A stretch of DNA of 64,000 nucleotides from Haloarchaeobius sp. HME9146 (GTDB lineage: Archaea; Halobacteriota; Halobacteria; Halobacteriales; Natrialbaceae), in the NCBI RefSeq assembly GCF_025399835.1, contig NZ_JAODVR010000001.1, forward strand, positions 3,162,001-3,226,000, written 5' to 3'. The position numbers and the translations under genes are program-made. Positions 32,436 through 53,453 of this stretch are shown here, in pieces (positions within the stretch are counted from its first letter, which is position 1; every line of letters starts with the position of its first letter). The notes below the pieces were generated by a model, which was not told the DNA's origin, made no database searches, and worked only from the letters and a program-made list of their open reading frames with translations.

Positions 32436-35400
32436 TCACTCGACGACGACGACGTCGCCGAACTCGAGGCGAACCCCGCCGTTTCCATCCTCCGTGCGCG
32501 TCATCGTCCAGCCGTTCGCGGTCACCATTCGACCGACCGCGCGCAGGCCATCGAGGCTCCGGTGACTCCGGGTGGCGACGCTGTGTGCGGCGGCCCCTTC
32601 GTCTTCGGTCTCCCAGTCGACGGCGACGACGAACCCCTCAGGCTCCTCCTGGTGCGAGAGGCTGACCACGCACTCGCCATCCCCTCCCGTGGTTACGGCC
32701 TCGAAGAGCGACTCGAAGAGCTGTTCGACCGCGCGTCGGTTCGCCTCGACGACGAGGGAGCCGTCGGTGACCACGAGCCGGTCGGTTGGCTGGTCGAGGT
32801 CCGACCAGACCGTGCGGGCGAGCGCGCCGAGGTCGACGCGCTCGGTCTCGCTGGCCGTCATCGACAGGGCGAGCGTGAGCGCCTCGTCGAGGAGCGCCTC
32901 GGACCGTTCCAGCGCCTGGGTGGCCGCCTCCAGCGAGGGCAGGTCTTCCTGCTGACGGGCCTCCTCGGTGTGTGCCTGCGCGTCGCGCACCGGTACCGCG
33001 ATGCGCTCGGAGAGCAGTTCGGCGAGCTCGTGAGCGACGGCGTCGCGACGGTCCAGTTCCGTCTCGTAGCGCGACTCGGCGAGTTCGTGCCCGAGCCAGT
33101 TGGCCAGCAACTCCACCATCGAACACCGGTCTTCGGTGAGTTCGGTCGGCGTCTCGGACTCGTCGAGGAAGCAGACGACGCCCCACAGCGACTCCTCTAC
33201 GTAGACGGGGGCACCGACGTACGAACCGATCGACGGCGCGGCGGACGGGATGCCGCCGTTCGATTCGGCCAGCTCTGTCGCGTACGTCGCGACGACGCGT
33301 TCGTCCGCAATCACCTGTTCGCAGAGCGTGTCTCCGAGCGGCACCGTCGTGCCGACCGGCGGCGGGTTCACGTCCCCCAGCGAAACCACGATCTCGTGCG
33401 TCTCGGCGGTCTGGTCGACGCGACAGAGCTGCGCACTGGTCGCTTCGAGCGAGTCGTGGAGCGTCTGGATGAGGAGTTCGATGCGCTCCGTCGAGGAGAG
33501 GCTCGCGTCCGTCATCGTGTCGTGGAACGCGTCGAGCAGGTCGTCGACCGCCGCGCGGTCCGTCACGTCCCGGCTGATGCCGATGATGCCGACGAGTCGG
33601 CCCGCGTCGTCGTAGTGGGGGTACTTCTCGCTCTCGAAGACGTGTTCGCGGCCGTCGATGATGTGTCGCTCCACCTCGGCCCTCGGCTCCTCGTGTTCGA
33701 GGATCCAGCGGTCGATGTCCAGCAGGTCCTCGTCGAGGTCGAACAGTTCCCTGTCGGTCCGGCCGACGACCGCCGTCGGTGCGAGTTCGAAGTACCGCGC
33801 ACCGGCGTCGTTGATGAACTCGTACCGCCCCTCGAGGTCCTTGATGTAGATGGCGTCCTGCGTCCGTTCTGCGATGGCCTGCAGTTGCCACGTCTGTCGG
33901 CGCTGTGCCGTTATGTCCTGGACGAACGAGAGGACGCTCACCGTCTCCCCGTTCTCGTCGAGGATGGCCCGGTTGTGCCACTCGCAGTCTATCTCCGCAC
34001 CGCTTTTCGTCACGTTCCGGTTGACGATGTGCTCGGTCTCCTCTCCGTCGACGAGGCGTTCCCACACGGCATCGACCGCGTCTTCCGAGGTGTGCGGGAC
34101 GATGAACTCGGCGTGCTGACCGATTGCCTCCTCGCGGGTGTACCCGAAGAGCTCCTGGGCGGCGTCGTTCCAGCGCACGACCTCGAAGTCGAGGGTCCAC
34201 TCGATGACCGCCATCGGGGACTGCTTGAACAGGAACTGCAGTTGCTGGTTCGCCCGTTCGAGGACCTCCTTGCGGTGGCGCTGGTCGCGGTTGTGCAACG
34301 CGATGACTGCCTGGTCGGCGAGTTCGGCGGCGAAGCGTATCTCGTCCTCGTCCCACTCACGTTTCGGCCCGCCGGTCTCGTTACAGAGCACGCCGACGAC
34401 CTGCCCGCCGCGTCGGATGGTCGCGTCGAGCATCGAGGTGATGCCGAGCGGTTCGAGGTACGGCTCGCACAGCTCCGCCGTCCGTGCGTCGGCGCGCGCG
34501 TCCGTCGCCGGAATCGCCCGGTGGCCTGCGAGTGCCTCGAAGTAGCTGGGGTAGTTCTCCACGGTGAGTTGCATGCCGGTCTCGTGGTCCCTGGTGGACC
34601 GGTCGTAGAGGTCGAGACACTCCAGCGTGTCGAAGGTGTCGTCGAACAGCCAGATGGAGGAGCGGTCGACGTCGAGAGTCCCGGCCGCCGTCTCGGTGAT
34701 ACGCCGCGCCGCACACTGCAGTTTCCCGCTCACCAGCACCTCGTCGGTCGCGAGGTCGATGACGGCCTGGCGCTGGCGTTCCTGGCGCTGTTCCCGGAGG
34801 TACCGGTTCGTGATGTCCCGGAAGATGAGGACGACCCCGACCACGTCGTCCGATTCGTTCGTGATGGGAGCCGCACTGTCCGCGATGTAGCGCTCGGTGC
34901 CGTCGAGCGAGCGGAGCTTCGTGTCCTCGGAGAACTCGAACGCGCTCTCGTGTTCGATGACGCGCTCGACCGGGCTCTCGACGGAATCACCGGTCTTGGC
35001 GTCCACGATGTCGAAAACCTCTGCCAGCGGCTTCCCGACGGCGTCCTCACGGTCCCAGCCCGTCAGTTCCTCGGCGACCACGTTCATGCGCTCGATGACG
35101 CCGTCGGTGTCGGTCGCGATGACGCCGTCACCGATGGAGTCGAGCGTGATGCGAAGGTCCTCCTCGCGTTGCTTGAGTGCCGAGCGCGTGCGCCAGTGGT
35201 ACGCCTCCTGCTCGATGGTCTGGGCGAGCAACCCGTACTGTGCCATCGGGTCGCCACCCTTCTGCAGGTAGCGGTTCGCGCCGAGGTTCAACGCCTCCAT
35301 CGCCACCTCCTCGCGGCCTTTCCCGGTGAAGATGACGAACGGAATCTGGTTGCCTCGCTCCTGGCGGAGCTGTTTCAGGAAGTCGAGACCGTCCATCTCG

Positions 35401-35600
35401 GGCATCTGGTAGTCCGAGACGACGACGTCGAACTCCTCCTCGCCGAGTCGGTCGAGGGCGTCGACCGCCGAGGCCGTCGTCTCTACCGACAACTCCTCGA
35501 ATCGCTCTTCGAGATACGTCTGTGTTGCCTCGAGAAGCGACTTGTCGTCGTCCACGTAGAGGACGTGGATTCCTCGGCTCGAATTGGTCTCGGCCCCCAT
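32436..35600 (-). CDS. REC-PAS-GAF-PAS-PAS-GAF sensor with degenerate histidine-kinase core
   Basis: 1054 residues from ATG 35600 (GTG 35624 also possible). Order: REC 11-125 with phospho-acceptor D63 (VVVSDYQMPEMDG); PAS ~145-270 (LRITLDSIGDGVIATDTDGV); GAF ~290-450; PAS ~455-575 and ~580-695; GAF ~710-860; then a HisKA-like helix and an ATPase-like domain. In the expected H-box the His is missing (RRDAVAHELAELLSERIAVP instead of SHDLRNPL), the N-box Asn is missing (LFESLFEAVTT) and no DxGxG motif follows. It is probably a signal integrator or docking protein without kinase activity. Upstream of the K+ channel gene. Confidence 0.88.
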   Translation of the reverse strand: MGAETNSSRGIHVLYVDDDKSLLEATQTYLEERFEELSVETTASAVDALDRLGEEEFDVVVSDYQMPEMDGLDFLKQLRQERGNQIPFVIFTGKGREEVAMEALNLGANRYLQKGGDPMAQYGLLAQTIEQEAYHWRTRSALKQREEDLRITLDSIGDGVIATDTDGVIERMNVVAEELTGWDREDAVGKPLAEVFDIVDAKTGDSVESPVERVIEHESAFEFSEDTKLRSLDGTERYIADSAAPITNESDDVVGVVLIFRDITNRYLREQRQERQRQAVIDLATDEVLVSGKLQCAARRITETAAGTLDVDRSSIWLFDDTFDTLECLDLYDRSTRDHETGMQLTVENYPSYFEALAGHRAIPATDARADARTAELCEPYLEPLGITSMLDATIRRGGQVVGVLCNETGGPKREWDEDEIRFAAELADQAVIALHNRDQRHRKEVLERANQQLQFLFKQSPMAVIEWTLDFEVVRWNDAAQELFGYTREEAIGQHAEFIVPHTSEDAVDAVWERLVDGEETEHIVNRNVTKSGAEIDCEWHNRAILDENGETVSVLSFVQDITAQRRQTWQLQAIAERTQDAIYIKDLEGRYEFINDAGARYFELAPTAVVGRTDRELFDLDEDLLDIDRWILEHEEPRAEVERHIIDGREHVFESEKYPHYDDAGRLVGIIGISRDVTDRAAVDDLLDAFHDTMTDASLSSTERIELLIQTLHDSLEATSAQLCRVDQTAETHEIVVSLGDVNPPPVGTTVPLGDTLCEQVIADERVVATYATELAESNGGIPSAAPSIGSYVGAPVYVEESLWGVVCFLDESETPTELTEDRCSMVELLANWLGHELAESRYETELDRRDAVAHELAELLSERIAVPVRDAQAHTEEARQQEDLPSLEAATQALERSEALLDEALTLALSMTASETERVDLGALARTVWSDLDQPTDRLVVTDGSLVVEANRRAVEQLFESLFEAVTTGGDGECVVSLSHQEEPEGFVVAVDWETEDEGAAAHSVATRSHRSLDGLRAVGRMVTANGWTMTRTEDGNGGVRLEFGDVVVVE

Positions 35601-35686
35601 ACTGGTACGAGAGTAGGGACTCACAGCACATAGCGAGTGCGCTCGTCGTGGCCAGATATATCAGCAGTCGCGGGCGGCCAGACCCG

Positions 35687-48419: not shown

Positions 48420-48692
48420 CCGGCCAGGTCGGCAACATCTACCGGTTTTCGCGTGACAGGAGTCTCCCCGGAAGGTTCCTGAAACGCCTCAAAACCCGTA
48501 GGAGAGAGATTATTACGCAGAGAAAGCGGCAGATACATAACCATCTCGTTAATACGCCAGGGCGAGAATTGTACGACTGTACACGGAATGGGGTTGGGAG
48601 GACATATCTCTGCAACGAGAGACGGGTCGTAAGCGGCACCGGGCAAGTGCCGTTGACCAGGACCGACACGTCATTCCGGTGCAGTATGGACC

Positions 48693-49454
48693 ATGACCGA
48701 ACAGACAGACAACACCGGTGACGCAGCACACATCCCGAGCGACGACCTCTTCGAGGCGCTCTCGGACCATTATCGACGGAAAGTGCTGTTTCACCTCCGC
48801 CAGAACGGGCTCGCGACCGTCGACGAGCTGACCGTCGTCGCGGCGGAACAGGAAGACGAGGCCGCCGACGTCCGCGAGACGCTGGTCGAGACCCACCTGC
48901 CGATGCTCGAATCGCTGGGTCTCGTAGACGTCGAGGCCGACGAACAGAAAGTGGAGTTACTCGCAGACCCCGACGAGATCGGAGACTGGCTCGACCTCGC
49001 GGTGAAGCGAGACGTGGAAGCAGAAATGAACGAAGACGCAGAACAGACAGAGGTGGCGGCGCACGAACCGGAAGATATCAGGGTACTACTTGTCGACGAC
49101 GCGCCCGACTTCGTGAGCGCCGTCGCCGACCTGCTCGAGCGCGAGCACGAGGACCTCGACATCATGACCGCGACGAGCGCGCCGGACGCGTTCACCGTCC
49201 TGAAGAACGAGGAGGTCGACTGCATCGTCAGCGACTACAAGATGCCGGCCATCGACGGGCTGGAGTTCCTCGACGCCGTCCGGGACGAGTACCCGGACGT
49301 CTCGTTCATCATGTTCACCAACAAGGGCAGTGAACACACCGCGGGTGAGGCGGTCGCCATCGGTGTGAGCGATTACCTCCAGAAGGAGACGAGTCCCGAA
49401 GGCTACGACCGCCTGGTCGACTCTATCAGGAACGCGGTAGGCAAACAGGCCTGA
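48693..49454 (+). CDS. Response regulator with N-terminal HTH (DUF7344-like) and C-terminal REC
   Basis: 253 residues. Residues ~18-100 form a haloarchaeal winged-helix module (LFEALSDHYRRKVLFHLRQN, then LPMLESLGLVDV), followed by an acidic linker and a REC domain from ~128: acceptor D181 in VSDYKMPAIDG and Lys in FTNKG. HTH-first, REC-last order is reversed relative to most response regulators. It is 15 bases upstream of a giant histidine kinase, its obvious partner. ATG 48693. Confidence 0.85.
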   Translation: MTEQTDNTGDAAHIPSDDLFEALSDHYRRKVLFHLRQNGLATVDELTVVAAEQEDEAADVRETLVETHLPMLESLGLVDVEADEQKVELLADPDEIGDWLDLAVKRDVEAEMNEDAEQTEVAAHEPEDIRVLLVDDAPDFVSAVADLLEREHEDLDIMTATSAPDAFTVLKNEEVDCIVSDYKMPAIDGLEFLDAVRDEYPDVSFIMFTNKGSEHTAGEAVAIGVSDYLQKETSPEGYDRLVDSIRNAVGKQA

Positions 49455-49469
49455 CCCCCCTTCCCGTCG

Positions 49470-52400
49470 ATGAACGACAGGGACTACGAGTACGAGCACC
49501 ACACCGCCGAGAGCGGGCTGGAGAGCGTCATGACGACCCCGCTCTCGGACACCAGCCAGATACGGGTCCTCCACGTCGACGACGACCCGGACCTCGTTGA
49601 GGCGACGGCAGCGTTTCTGACCAAGATAGATGCCGGCCTGACCGTCGCCACGGAGACCGACGCGGAGACAGCGCTCGCTCGACTCGATGGGGGAATCGAC
49701 TGCGTCGTCAGTGACTACGAGATGCCCGGGATGGACGGCATCGACTTCCTCGAGGCTATCAGAGAGCGATACAACTCGCTCCCGTTCATCCTGTTCACCG
49801 GCAAGGGGTCCGAGGAGATAGCCGGAAAGGCACTCTCGGCCGGCGCCAACGGCTACATCCGGAAGGAAGGTGGGACCGGACAGTTCACCGTCCTCGCCAA
49901 CATGATCCGCGAAGCCGTCTCGAAGGTCCGCGCGGAGACGAACTACCGGGAGATATTCAAGGCGACGGCGGAGGGCATCCTCATCGTCGACCCCGGAACC
50001 GGTATCATCCTCGACGCCAACCCCGGTGCGTGCGAGTTGCTCGAACGGGACGCCCACGAACTGGTCGGGCACGCCTTCGGCGAGGTCAGTTCCGACTACG
50101 AACCACACACCGGGGCGGCCCTGTCGGAGTGGCTGACACGGACCGTCGAGGAGGGCACACAGAAGCTCGAGTGGCAGCTGCTCGACGGTGACGGAGACCT
50201 GCTCTGGACCGAGTTGCAACTCAACCCCACGCGGCTGGGTGGGGAGGAACGCGTCCTCGTGTTGCTGCGCGACATCTCCGACCGGAAGTTCCGCGAGAAC
50301 GAGCTCAGACGTCGGGAGAAGGAGCTCATGCGGGCCGAAGAGCGCTACCAGTTGCTCGTCTCGAACGTCGAGGACTACGCCATCTGCGAACTCGACCCGG
50401 AAGGGTACATCAGTTCGTGGAACGAGACGGCCGCCCGCATCACCGGGTTCTCCCGCGAGGAGGCCATCGGCACCCACCTGTCGCTGCTCTACACCGACGA
50501 GGACATCGAGCAGGACGTTCCCCGGCGACTCCTCGAGGAGGCCCAGCGCGAGGGACGCTCCGAGGACGAGGGCTGGCGCGTCCGCCGCGACGGCTCACGG
50601 TTCTGGGCGAACGTCGTCATCAGCAAACTCCAGGCTGGTAACGGCGAAACCGGGTACGAGGCGCTGACCCGGGACCGCTCACGCGAGCGCGAGCAGCGAG
50701 CGCAACTGGACCTGGTCGAACAGCGCTACCGCCAGCTCGTCGAACAGAACCTGGTCGGTATCTACGTCATCCAGGACGACTCGCTGGCGTACGTCAACCC
50801 ACGATTCGCGGAGATATTCGGGTACGACCAGGACGAACTCGTGGGAACGGACCCGCTGGACCTGGTGATAGACGAGTACACCGAAGAGGTCGAGGACCGC
50901 CTCCGCCGCCGCATCGAAGACCAGTTGACGGACATCCAGTACCGGTTCGAGGCTGTCCGCAAGGACGGCGAGACCATCCTCGTCGAGGTGCACGGGAACT
51001 ACATCGAGTACGACGGCCAGCCGGCGGTGATAGGGTCGCTCATCGACGTGACCGAGGACGCCGAGCGAAAACAAGAACTCGAACGCTACCAGCGCATCTT
51101 CGAGGCGATGGGCGACGGCGTGTACAAGCTCGACCTCGACGGCAACATCACCGACTGCAACCGGACCGCAGAGGACATCAGCGGCTACAGCCGCGAGGAC
51201 CTCGTCGGCGAGCACGTCTCGCTCGTGATGACCGATGCGGACATCGAGCGCTGCGAGCGGGGCATCCACGAGCTGTTGACCGTCGGCGACGAGCGCGTCA
51301 AGCGCTACGAGATAGACATCAAGCACCGCGACGGCCACACCGTTCCCTGCGAGCTCAACCTGACGGTCCTGCCGCTCGGCCCGCACGGCGAACTCCGGGG
51401 GACGGTCGGCATCGTCCGCGACATCTCCAGGCGCAAGGAGCGCCAGCGCCGGTACGAGGCGATATTCAACCAGACGTACCAGTTCACGGGGCTCCTCGAC
51501 CCCGACGGAACGATGCTCGAAGCCAACGAGACCGCCCTCGAGTTCGGCGGGCTGAACCGGGCCGACATCGTCGGCAAGAAGATGTGGGAGACCGGCTGGT
51601 TCACCGACGACGAGGAGACGAGAGAGACCCTGCGCGGGCTCGTCGAACAGGCCGCCGCCGGCGCGTTCGTCCGATGCGAGATGGACGTTCACGGCCCCGA
51701 CGACGTTGCCGTCACCGATTTCTCCATCAAACCGGTCACCGACGACGACGGCGAGGTGGTCCTGCTCATCCCCGAGGCGCGCGACATCACCGAACGGGTC
51801 CGCATCGAGAGCGAACTCCGCGAGAGCCGCCGGAAGTTCTCGACGCTGCTGTCGAACCTCCCCGGGACGGCCTACCGGTGTGCGAACGAGCCGGACTGGC
51901 CGACCGAGTTCGTCAGCGAGGGCTGTCTGCCCCTGACGGGATACAGCCGGGAAGAGATCGAATCGGGCACGGTGACCTGGGGGAGCGACATCATCCACCC
52001 GGACGACCGCGAGGACGTCTGGGAGTCGGTCCAGGCGGCGTTGCGAGCCCGCGAACCGTTCGAGGTGAACTACCGTATCGTGACCAGAGACGGCGAGGTG
52101 CGCTGGGCGTGGGAACAGGGCGAGGGCGTCTTCGACGACGATGGCGAACTCGAGGCACTGGAGGGGTTCATCACCGACGTCACGGAACGCTACCGCATGG
52201 AACAGGAGGTCCGCGCCGGAGAGCAAGCACTTCGCGAACTCGCCGACGTGGCCTCGCGCGTCGACCTGACCTTCCAGGAGAAGCTTCCGAAGATACTCAC
52301 AATCGGCTGTGAGCGCCTCGGGCTGGAGCACGGCCACCTCACCAGGGTCCAGCCACAGTCCGACCTTCGGGAGGTCGTCGCGGTCAGCGACGACCACCAG

Positions 52401-53453
52401 TACGTCGTCGAAGGTTCGGTGATGCCGCTCTCCGAAACCCTCTGTGCGAAGACCATCGACTCGCGGGAGATGAACTGTATCCACGAAGACGGCGACGGCC
52501 CGTTCAAGACCTACGTCGGGGTGCCGGTCGTCTCCCAGGGCAGGATCTACGGGACGCTCTGTTTCGTCGATTGCGAGACGCGCGACCCGCTCTCCGACGC
52601 CGAGCGGTCGTTCGTCACGCTGGTCGCCCAGTGGATCCGCTTCGAACTCGAGCGCGAGGAGTACGAACGACAGCTTGAACGCGAGAACGACCGGCTGGAG
52701 GACTTCGCGAGCATCGTCAGCCACGACCTGCGGAACCCCCTCGACATCATCTCCATCACGCTCGAACTCATGCGCCAGGACGAGGACCTCGACCGACTCG
52801 ACGCCATCGAACGGGCCGCGAGCCGGATGAACGAGCTCATCGACGACCTGCTGTTGCTGACCCGCCAGGGCAAGATCGTCGGGGAGACGAGCCTCGTCGA
52901 CGTCGGGGCGGTCGCAACGCGGGCCTGGGAGAACGTCGATACGGCCGACGCCGACCTGACCGTCGAGCCCGACCTCGGCCACATCGCCGCCGACGAACCC
53001 CGGCTCCTGCAGGTGTTCGAGAACCTCTTCCGGAACTCCGTCGAACACGGGCGGTCGGAATCTCAGCTGCGGTTCGAGGAGGCGGGCGACCACGAGGCTC
53101 GACAGACTGTGGGTGAGCCCAGCGCCGGAAACGGTGGTATCACCACCGCTGACGAGTCCCTCTCGATCCGCGTCGGGCCACTCGATACCGCCCCGGGATT
53201 CTACGTGGAGGACGACGGCGCGGGCATCCCGCCGGACCAGCGCGACCGCGTGTTCGACCACGGCTACACCACCTCCGAGGCAGGGACCGGCTTCGGGCTC
53301 TCCATCGTCCGGGACATCGTCGAGGCCCACAAGTGGCAGATATCGGCGACCGAGAGCGAGGCTGGCGGTGCCCGTTTCGAGGTGCGAAAGCAGCCGGCCA
53401 CCGGTGTGGCAGACACCGGGTTCCCGCCGACCCAGCCTGAACCCGAGGAGTGA
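49470..53453 (+). CDS. Giant hybrid sensor histidine kinase (REC, multiple PAS, GAF, HisKA, HATPase)
   Basis: 1327 residues. REC ~30-145 with D82 (CVVSDYEMPGMDG); then five or six PAS domains (starts near 155, 290, 410, 535, 660 and 785; e.g. EAIFNQTYQFTGLLDPDG, FSTLLSNLPGTAYRC, with PAC ends such as GTVGIVRDIS); GAF ~915-1060; HisKA with phosphoacceptor H1085 (SHDLRNPL); HATPase with N-box ENLFRNSVEHG, DGAGIPPDQRDRVFDHGYTT and GTGFGLSI. All catalytic motifs intact, so an active kinase. No transmembrane segment is seen, so it is cytoplasmic. Coupled to the HTH-REC gene (15 bases). Confidence 0.93.
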   Translation: MNDRDYEYEHHTAESGLESVMTTPLSDTSQIRVLHVDDDPDLVEATAAFLTKIDAGLTVATETDAETALARLDGGIDCVVSDYEMPGMDGIDFLEAIRERYNSLPFILFTGKGSEEIAGKALSAGANGYIRKEGGTGQFTVLANMIREAVSKVRAETNYREIFKATAEGILIVDPGTGIILDANPGACELLERDAHELVGHAFGEVSSDYEPHTGAALSEWLTRTVEEGTQKLEWQLLDGDGDLLWTELQLNPTRLGGEERVLVLLRDISDRKFRENELRRREKELMRAEERYQLLVSNVEDYAICELDPEGYISSWNETAARITGFSREEAIGTHLSLLYTDEDIEQDVPRRLLEEAQREGRSEDEGWRVRRDGSRFWANVVISKLQAGNGETGYEALTRDRSREREQRAQLDLVEQRYRQLVEQNLVGIYVIQDDSLAYVNPRFAEIFGYDQDELVGTDPLDLVIDEYTEEVEDRLRRRIEDQLTDIQYRFEAVRKDGETILVEVHGNYIEYDGQPAVIGSLIDVTEDAERKQELERYQRIFEAMGDGVYKLDLDGNITDCNRTAEDISGYSREDLVGEHVSLVMTDADIERCERGIHELLTVGDERVKRYEIDIKHRDGHTVPCELNLTVLPLGPHGELRGTVGIVRDISRRKERQRRYEAIFNQTYQFTGLLDPDGTMLEANETALEFGGLNRADIVGKKMWETGWFTDDEETRETLRGLVEQAAAGAFVRCEMDVHGPDDVAVTDFSIKPVTDDDGEVVLLIPEARDITERVRIESELRESRRKFSTLLSNLPGTAYRCANEPDWPTEFVSEGCLPLTGYSREEIESGTVTWGSDIIHPDDREDVWESVQAALRAREPFEVNYRIVTRDGEVRWAWEQGEGVFDDDGELEALEGFITDVTERYRMEQEVRAGEQALRELADVASRVDLTFQEKLPKILTIGCERLGLEHGHLTRVQPQSDLREVVAVSDDHQYVVEGSVMPLSETLCAKTIDSREMNCIHEDGDGPFKTYVGVPVVSQGRIYGTLCFVDCETRDPLSDAERSFVTLVAQWIRFELEREEYERQLERENDRLEDFASIVSHDLRNPLDIISITLELMRQDEDLDRLDAIERAASRMNELIDDLLLLTRQGKIVGETSLVDVGAVATRAWENVDTADADLTVEPDLGHIAADEPRLLQVFENLFRNSVEHGRSESQLRFEEAGDHEARQTVGEPSAGNGGITTADESLSIRVGPLDTAPGFYVEDDGAGIPPDQRDRVFDHGYTTSEAGTGFGLSIVRDIVEAHKWQISATESEAGGARFEVRKQPATGVADTGFPPTQPEPEE

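Follow-up and report, generated by a model that had tools for sequence, protein, structure and literature searches.

A winged-helix response regulator paired with a PAS histidine kinase across haloarchaea

We analysed a stretch of 64,000 nucleotides (the window, G000:C1:3162001-3226000) from a haloarchaeal genome of 4.19 Mb, in which a response regulator and a histidine kinase are encoded on the same strand by two open reading frames separated by a spacer of 15 bases (49455-49469). The limits that the initial annotation had given for both reading frames were correct. Table 1 collects the features of the locus, together with a pseudokinase that the same annotation had linked to the pair. No conserved third gene could be recognised beside the pair in the neighbourhoods inspected.

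Table 1. Features of the regulator-kinase locus and of the pseudokinase, in window coordinates.
Feature	Position	Strand	Basis
Candidate regulator operator (inferred), TAACCATCTCGTTAA	48538..48552	.	TAACC-N5-GTTAA
Conserved non-coding block, promoter/leader (inferred)	48538..48692	+	identity to congener G001
Response regulator wHTH (DUF7344)-REC, 253 aa	48693..49454	+	ORF and Pfam
Winged helix-turn-helix, DUF7344, residues 20-88	48750..48956	+	Pfam 35.6 bits (cut-off 27.8); AlphaFold model
Regulator REC, residues 131-236, predicted phospho-acceptor D181 (49233-49235)	49083..49400	+	Pfam 82 bits
Cytosolic histidine kinase REC-PAS6-GAF-HisKA-HATPase, 1327 aa	49470..53453	+	ORF, Pfam/TIGR00229 domains and hydropathy
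Kinase N-terminal REC, residues 33-135, D82	49566..49874	+	Pfam 78 bits
Six PAS domains, about residues 154-905, limits approximate	49929..52184	+	six stretches of TIGR00229, six of PAS_9
GAF domain, residues 939-1057	52284..52640	+	Pfam 35.9 bits
Kinase core: HisKA 1076-1133 (H1085) and HATPase_c 1175-1306	52695..53387	+	Pfam 48.6 and 66.6 bits
Pseudokinase REC-PAS-GAF-PAS-PAS-GAF	32436-35624	-	domain search, sequence

In the regulator, the HTH precedes the REC domain, as had been proposed from its likeness to DUF7344, and Pfam assigns both domains. By domain order it thus corresponds to the LtrR-like HTH-REC regulators, in which an N-terminal HTH or wHTH is followed by REC. The receiver has the residues expected of a two-component REC domain, namely an acidic pocket (D135/D136), the phospho-acceptor D181, T209 and K231; among 20 homologues D136, D181, T209 and K231 are invariant, while D135 is conserved in at least 90%. 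DUF7344 was matched 12 times in the genome and found fused to REC in this regulator only, and the literature searched yielded no described function for the domain. Since the whole regulator, used as query in a fold search, matched REC domains only, the HTH was modelled by itself with AlphaFold (residues 1-127, 15 homologues, mean pLDDT 78). The model is a winged helix whose nearest solved structures are the ArsR-type repressors AntR, CadC and SmtB (VIA Z about 10); the haloarchaeal RosR scores Z 9.1. As Foldseek E-values for this model were weak (best 0.01), the predicted ArsR-like character is to be read as a fold assignment, not as a family assignment.

The kinase had been described as a 1327-residue protein with its own REC, five to six PAS domains and a GAF domain, which the domain searches confirmed, setting the PAS count at six. 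Its soluble nature was upheld as well, with no 19-residue window exceeding a mean Kyte-Doolittle value of 1.2 and hence no predicted transmembrane segment, and the residue numbers H1085, D82 and D181 are correct. All four kinase boxes are intact, with the H box VSHDLRNP at 1083-1090, the N box NLFRNSVEH at 1185-1193, G1 (DDGAGIP) at 1248-1254 and G2 (GTGFGL) at 1272-1277, so that from its residues the kinase looks catalytically complete. The acidic pockets of the REC domains are intact as well. The label of a hybrid kinase, however, had to be dropped: by the convention of PMC5847659 a canonical hybrid kinase carries REC C-terminal to the kinase core, whereas here REC is N-terminal and the core C-terminal. 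With an N-terminal REC, PAS/GAF domains and C-terminal HisKA and HATPase, the protein belongs to the REC-(PAS)n-HisKA-HATPase class of that census, whose domain order is the same. These proteins are abundant in archaea and account for almost 20% of archaeal REC proteins, but none had been experimentally characterised at the time of the 2018 census (PMC5847659); the window kinase differs from the class as described there in having a conserved partner regulator.

This conserved partnership became apparent on comparing genomes. Of 125 genomes of the family that were searched, 24 matched strongly, in about 20 cases to wHTH-REC; a class-wide search supplied further wHTH-REC homologues, whose neighbourhoods were then read. 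In 23 of the 27 distinct wHTH-REC genes, the window's own counted, a PAS histidine kinase is encoded by the gene that follows on the same strand. The four exceptions are two genes of the Halorubellus group without an adjacent kinase, one gene accompanied by a divergent gene with HisKA only (L276), and a fusion. For a rough control, we sampled eight other REC relatives without kinase core from the window genome; in 15-kb stretches around them, reaching about 7 kb away, a separate kinase was detected in none (0/8). The frequency of the pairing therefore points to a conserved two-gene two-component system. The initial annotation had spoken of a two-gene cytosolic sensory system, and this description is borne out by the conservation of the pair across haloarchaeal families, by the intact kinase boxes and by the predicted winged helix.

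An orthologous pair was found in a genome of another family (G404, L274), with order and short spacing kept and with a REC domain in the kinase there as well. The two regulators are 62% identical in the HTH and 75% in REC. The kinases share 62% identity over residues 420-1305, which comprise the last four PAS domains, GAF and the kinase core, versus only 33% over REC and the first PAS region, the least conserved part. Consequently, the conserved core of the kinase consists of the later sensors plus the kinase itself. In the fusion (G327, L275:6219-10247), a single protein of 1342 aa shows the order DUF7344-REC-PAS-GAF-GAF-BAT-HTH_10, with a PAS block 41% identical to that of the window kinase. 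It supports a functional link of wHTH-REC to a related sensory block, although its output is of Bat type and not a kinase.

Conservation extends into the upstream DNA. The window and the congener G001 are syntenic over 10.6 kb, and the longest stretch in which they agree letter for letter (92 bp, 48538-48629) is non-coding; 48542-48692 is 96.7% identical, compared with about 84-86% for the coding genes; the block could be promoter, operator or leader. It begins with the palindrome TAACC-N5-GTTAA, which occurs upstream of the orthologous pair in G000, G001 and G404, each time as a single site. Shuffled sequences yielded a shared 5+5 pattern with four or more inverted pairs in 0.7% of cases, for a motif that was first spotted by eye. 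Found in three genomes, two of them close relatives, the palindrome is a suggestive candidate operator. The motif gave no further targets that would define a regulon, the 15-bp site being single-copy in all three genomes. In G404 (L274:1375-5726, minus strand), the pair is divergent from a three-gene GlpABC-like set of two FAD oxidoreductases and an iron-sulfur protein, with the palindrome TTAACCGTTTGGTTAA lying between. There the site faces the GlpABC-like operon too and could serve that operon instead. The upstream block further contains the inverted repeats TTGTACGACTGTACA at 48569-48583, which has no second exact copy in the genome, TCTCTGCAACGAGAGA and CGGCACCGGGCAAGTGCCG. No known RNA family was recognised upstream, the one Rfam match being at chance level (E 2.2); read as RNA, the leader folds better than shuffles (z -2.4), the two sequences compared being too close to inform on covariation.

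We propose that the two proteins encoded by the operon probably form a two-component system in the cytosol, of the archaeal "N-terminal HTH" type represented by LtrK/LtrR, the type being assigned by domain order. In this model, the PAS and GAF domains would read internal signals, the kinase would autophosphorylate at H1085, and the phosphoryl group would be passed straight to D181 of the regulator. Phosphorylation is expected to alter DNA binding by the ArsR-like winged helix, and the targets would probably include the regulator's own promoter. The kinase REC with D82 would tune the kinase as an accessory input or as a brake, and would not be an obligatory relay step. The locus is read most simply as a soluble kinase and its DNA-binding partner, while other kinases, of the roughly 40 kinase cores encoded in the genome, could phosphorylate the regulator too. 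The earlier statement that no pathway of this layout had been described proved too strong, since both LtrK/LtrR (PMC4823666) and the REC-(PAS)n-HisKA-HATPase class (PMC5847659) precede it. For LtrK and LtrR of Methanococcoides burtonii, direct His-Asp transfer from kinase to regulator was demonstrated in vitro, and LtrR resembles our regulator in carrying its HTH ahead of REC, again compared by domain order; LtrK, in contrast, spans the membrane and carries a CHASE-type extracellular domain, with no REC or PAS array described (PMC4823666).

The role of the kinase REC is where alternative models have most room. An N-terminal REC is found in six of the 23 partner kinases (G000, G001, G404, G055, G401 and Haloarcula rara); BLAST detected none in the other 17, and for six of these a Pfam check was made as well. 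The G404 kinase keeps D82 and its pocket, while the REC of Haloarcula rara is degenerate and lacks both the acidic pair and the conserved lysine. On this distribution, the domain is an optional part of the partner kinases. It is conceivable that REC is nevertheless the main input, with another kinase phosphorylating D82 and thereby switching the kinase, which would make the pair a node below a different sensor. Galperin et al. proposed such cascade-intermediate roles for REC-HisK proteins (PMC5847659), and both the conserved D82 pocket and the large complement of kinase cores would suit them. However, no upstream kinase linked to the pair was found, and REC with the first PAS region is the very part that diverges most between the orthologues; we regard this model as possible, though rather unlikely. 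Within the accessory role that we favour, REC, acting in cis, and the regulator might compete for the phosphoryl group of H1085, which would build a threshold or feedback brake into the kinase. This is a tentative idea to which we give slightly less credence than to REC as main input; both cis competition and input from another kinase fit as roles of the domain. If correct, cis competition would be the first role to be worked out for an archaeal REC-HisK protein. For an N-terminal-REC kinase there is now a clear candidate partner, conserved across families, and nature offers a series of partner kinases with and without REC as well as a candidate target site; experiments can therefore address directly what the kinase REC does.

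Could the two genes be neighbours by coincidence, with the regulator serving another kinase or acting unphosphorylated and the kinase having other targets? In a tree of kinase cores, the partners of the other regulators form one clade (100/97), which implies that the association of regulator and kinase is old. The window kinase core and that of its congener fall outside this clade, which would be in line with coincidence, as would the two Halorubellus-group homologues without adjacent kinase; a joint clade is, however, not rejected (AU p 0.45). Because the window kinase core groups apart from the other partner kinases, the kinase partner may have been exchanged in the window lineage. Against coincidence stand the adjoining kinases at 23 of 27 homologues and the retention of pair, order and short spacing in a second family, so that we consider it improbable.

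The initial annotation had further suggested a phosphate relay over three RECs, the third belonging to a kinase-dead sensor at 32.4 kb. This sensor is real: REC, PAS and GAF domains are present without HisKA or HATPase match, and the protein ends in a degenerate kinase core that has E in place of the H-box histidine and has lost the N, G1 and G2 boxes. Its REC is intact with the phospho-acceptor kept; the number D63 given for this residue holds when counting from the next ATG, but becomes D71 from the GTG start. The gene lies 13 kb from the pair on the opposite strand. Among nine other genomes tested, only one congener, G001, has a matching protein, about 16 kb from its pair and in a similar arrangement; four congeners without the pair, and G404 with the pair, gave no match at 1e-80. 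That two related species have both is weak evidence for a connection, and G404 indicates that the pair may occur without the pseudokinase. The motifs VSDYxMPxxDG and FTxKG are indeed shared by all three proteins, as had been noted, but are not specific to them: among 16 other REC relatives of the genome, the pseudokinase included, VSDYxMP occurs in 10 and FTx[KR]G in 10. Being common to most of the REC family, the motifs provide no tie between regulator, kinase and pseudokinase. A recent duplication as the origin of the shared motifs was also rejected, the regulator and kinase RECs not being sisters in a tree that is built on few columns and poorly resolved.

Asp-to-Asp transfer requires an intermediate His. 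We found no HPt or equivalent His between two Asp residues, although a divergent HPt could be missed; the sole Hpt match in the genome lies in a 1381-aa ORF that adjoins REC-only/CheB-like ORFs and is presumably CheA. A relay from H1085 over D82 to D181, with the pseudokinase REC as third station, could draw on the phospho-acceptors kept in all three RECs, on the congener that has both pair and pseudokinase and on a hybrid kinase of Methanosarcina acetivorans that labels several RECs (PMC11784639), but with the intermediate His missing, 17 of the 23 partner kinases devoid of REC, one further REC degenerate, the motifs of the pseudokinase family-wide and the pseudokinase itself unlinked to the pair and unmatched in G404, we judge it highly improbable.

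Direct transfer from kinase to regulator, as we propose, can be set beside further characterised systems. DNA-binding response regulators are uncommon in archaea, and both kinds of protein encoded here were already catalogued in 2018 (PMC5847659); new are their conserved pairing, the fusion and the upstream site. MA4377 of Methanosarcina acetivorans is likewise a kinase with its own RECs beside a neighbouring REC protein, and both intra- and intermolecular transfer were shown for this system; it differs in being membrane-bound, in having two RECs of its own and in a partner that is REC-only (PMC11784639). FilR1 of the FilI/FilR1/FilR2 system of Methanosaeta harundinacea also combines an N-terminal wHTH with a C-terminal REC, but, in what PMC5847659 relates of the system, has DUF1724 in its middle and works alongside a second, REC-only regulator. 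Bat-type regulators such as HVO_1357 are haloarchaeal proteins in which REC and sensory domains drive an HTH output (PMC7824242); in the window system, by contrast, the output HTH (DUF7344) resides in a separate protein and a kinase core is present. The G327 fusion joins the Bat type to the wHTH-REC module, and this protein bears a DNA-binding-type domain at both ends. Another arrangement of the module is seen in a 566-aa protein of the Halorubellus group (L082:6083-7783), in which DUF7344-REC is C-terminal and follows about 320 N-terminal residues without Pfam match.
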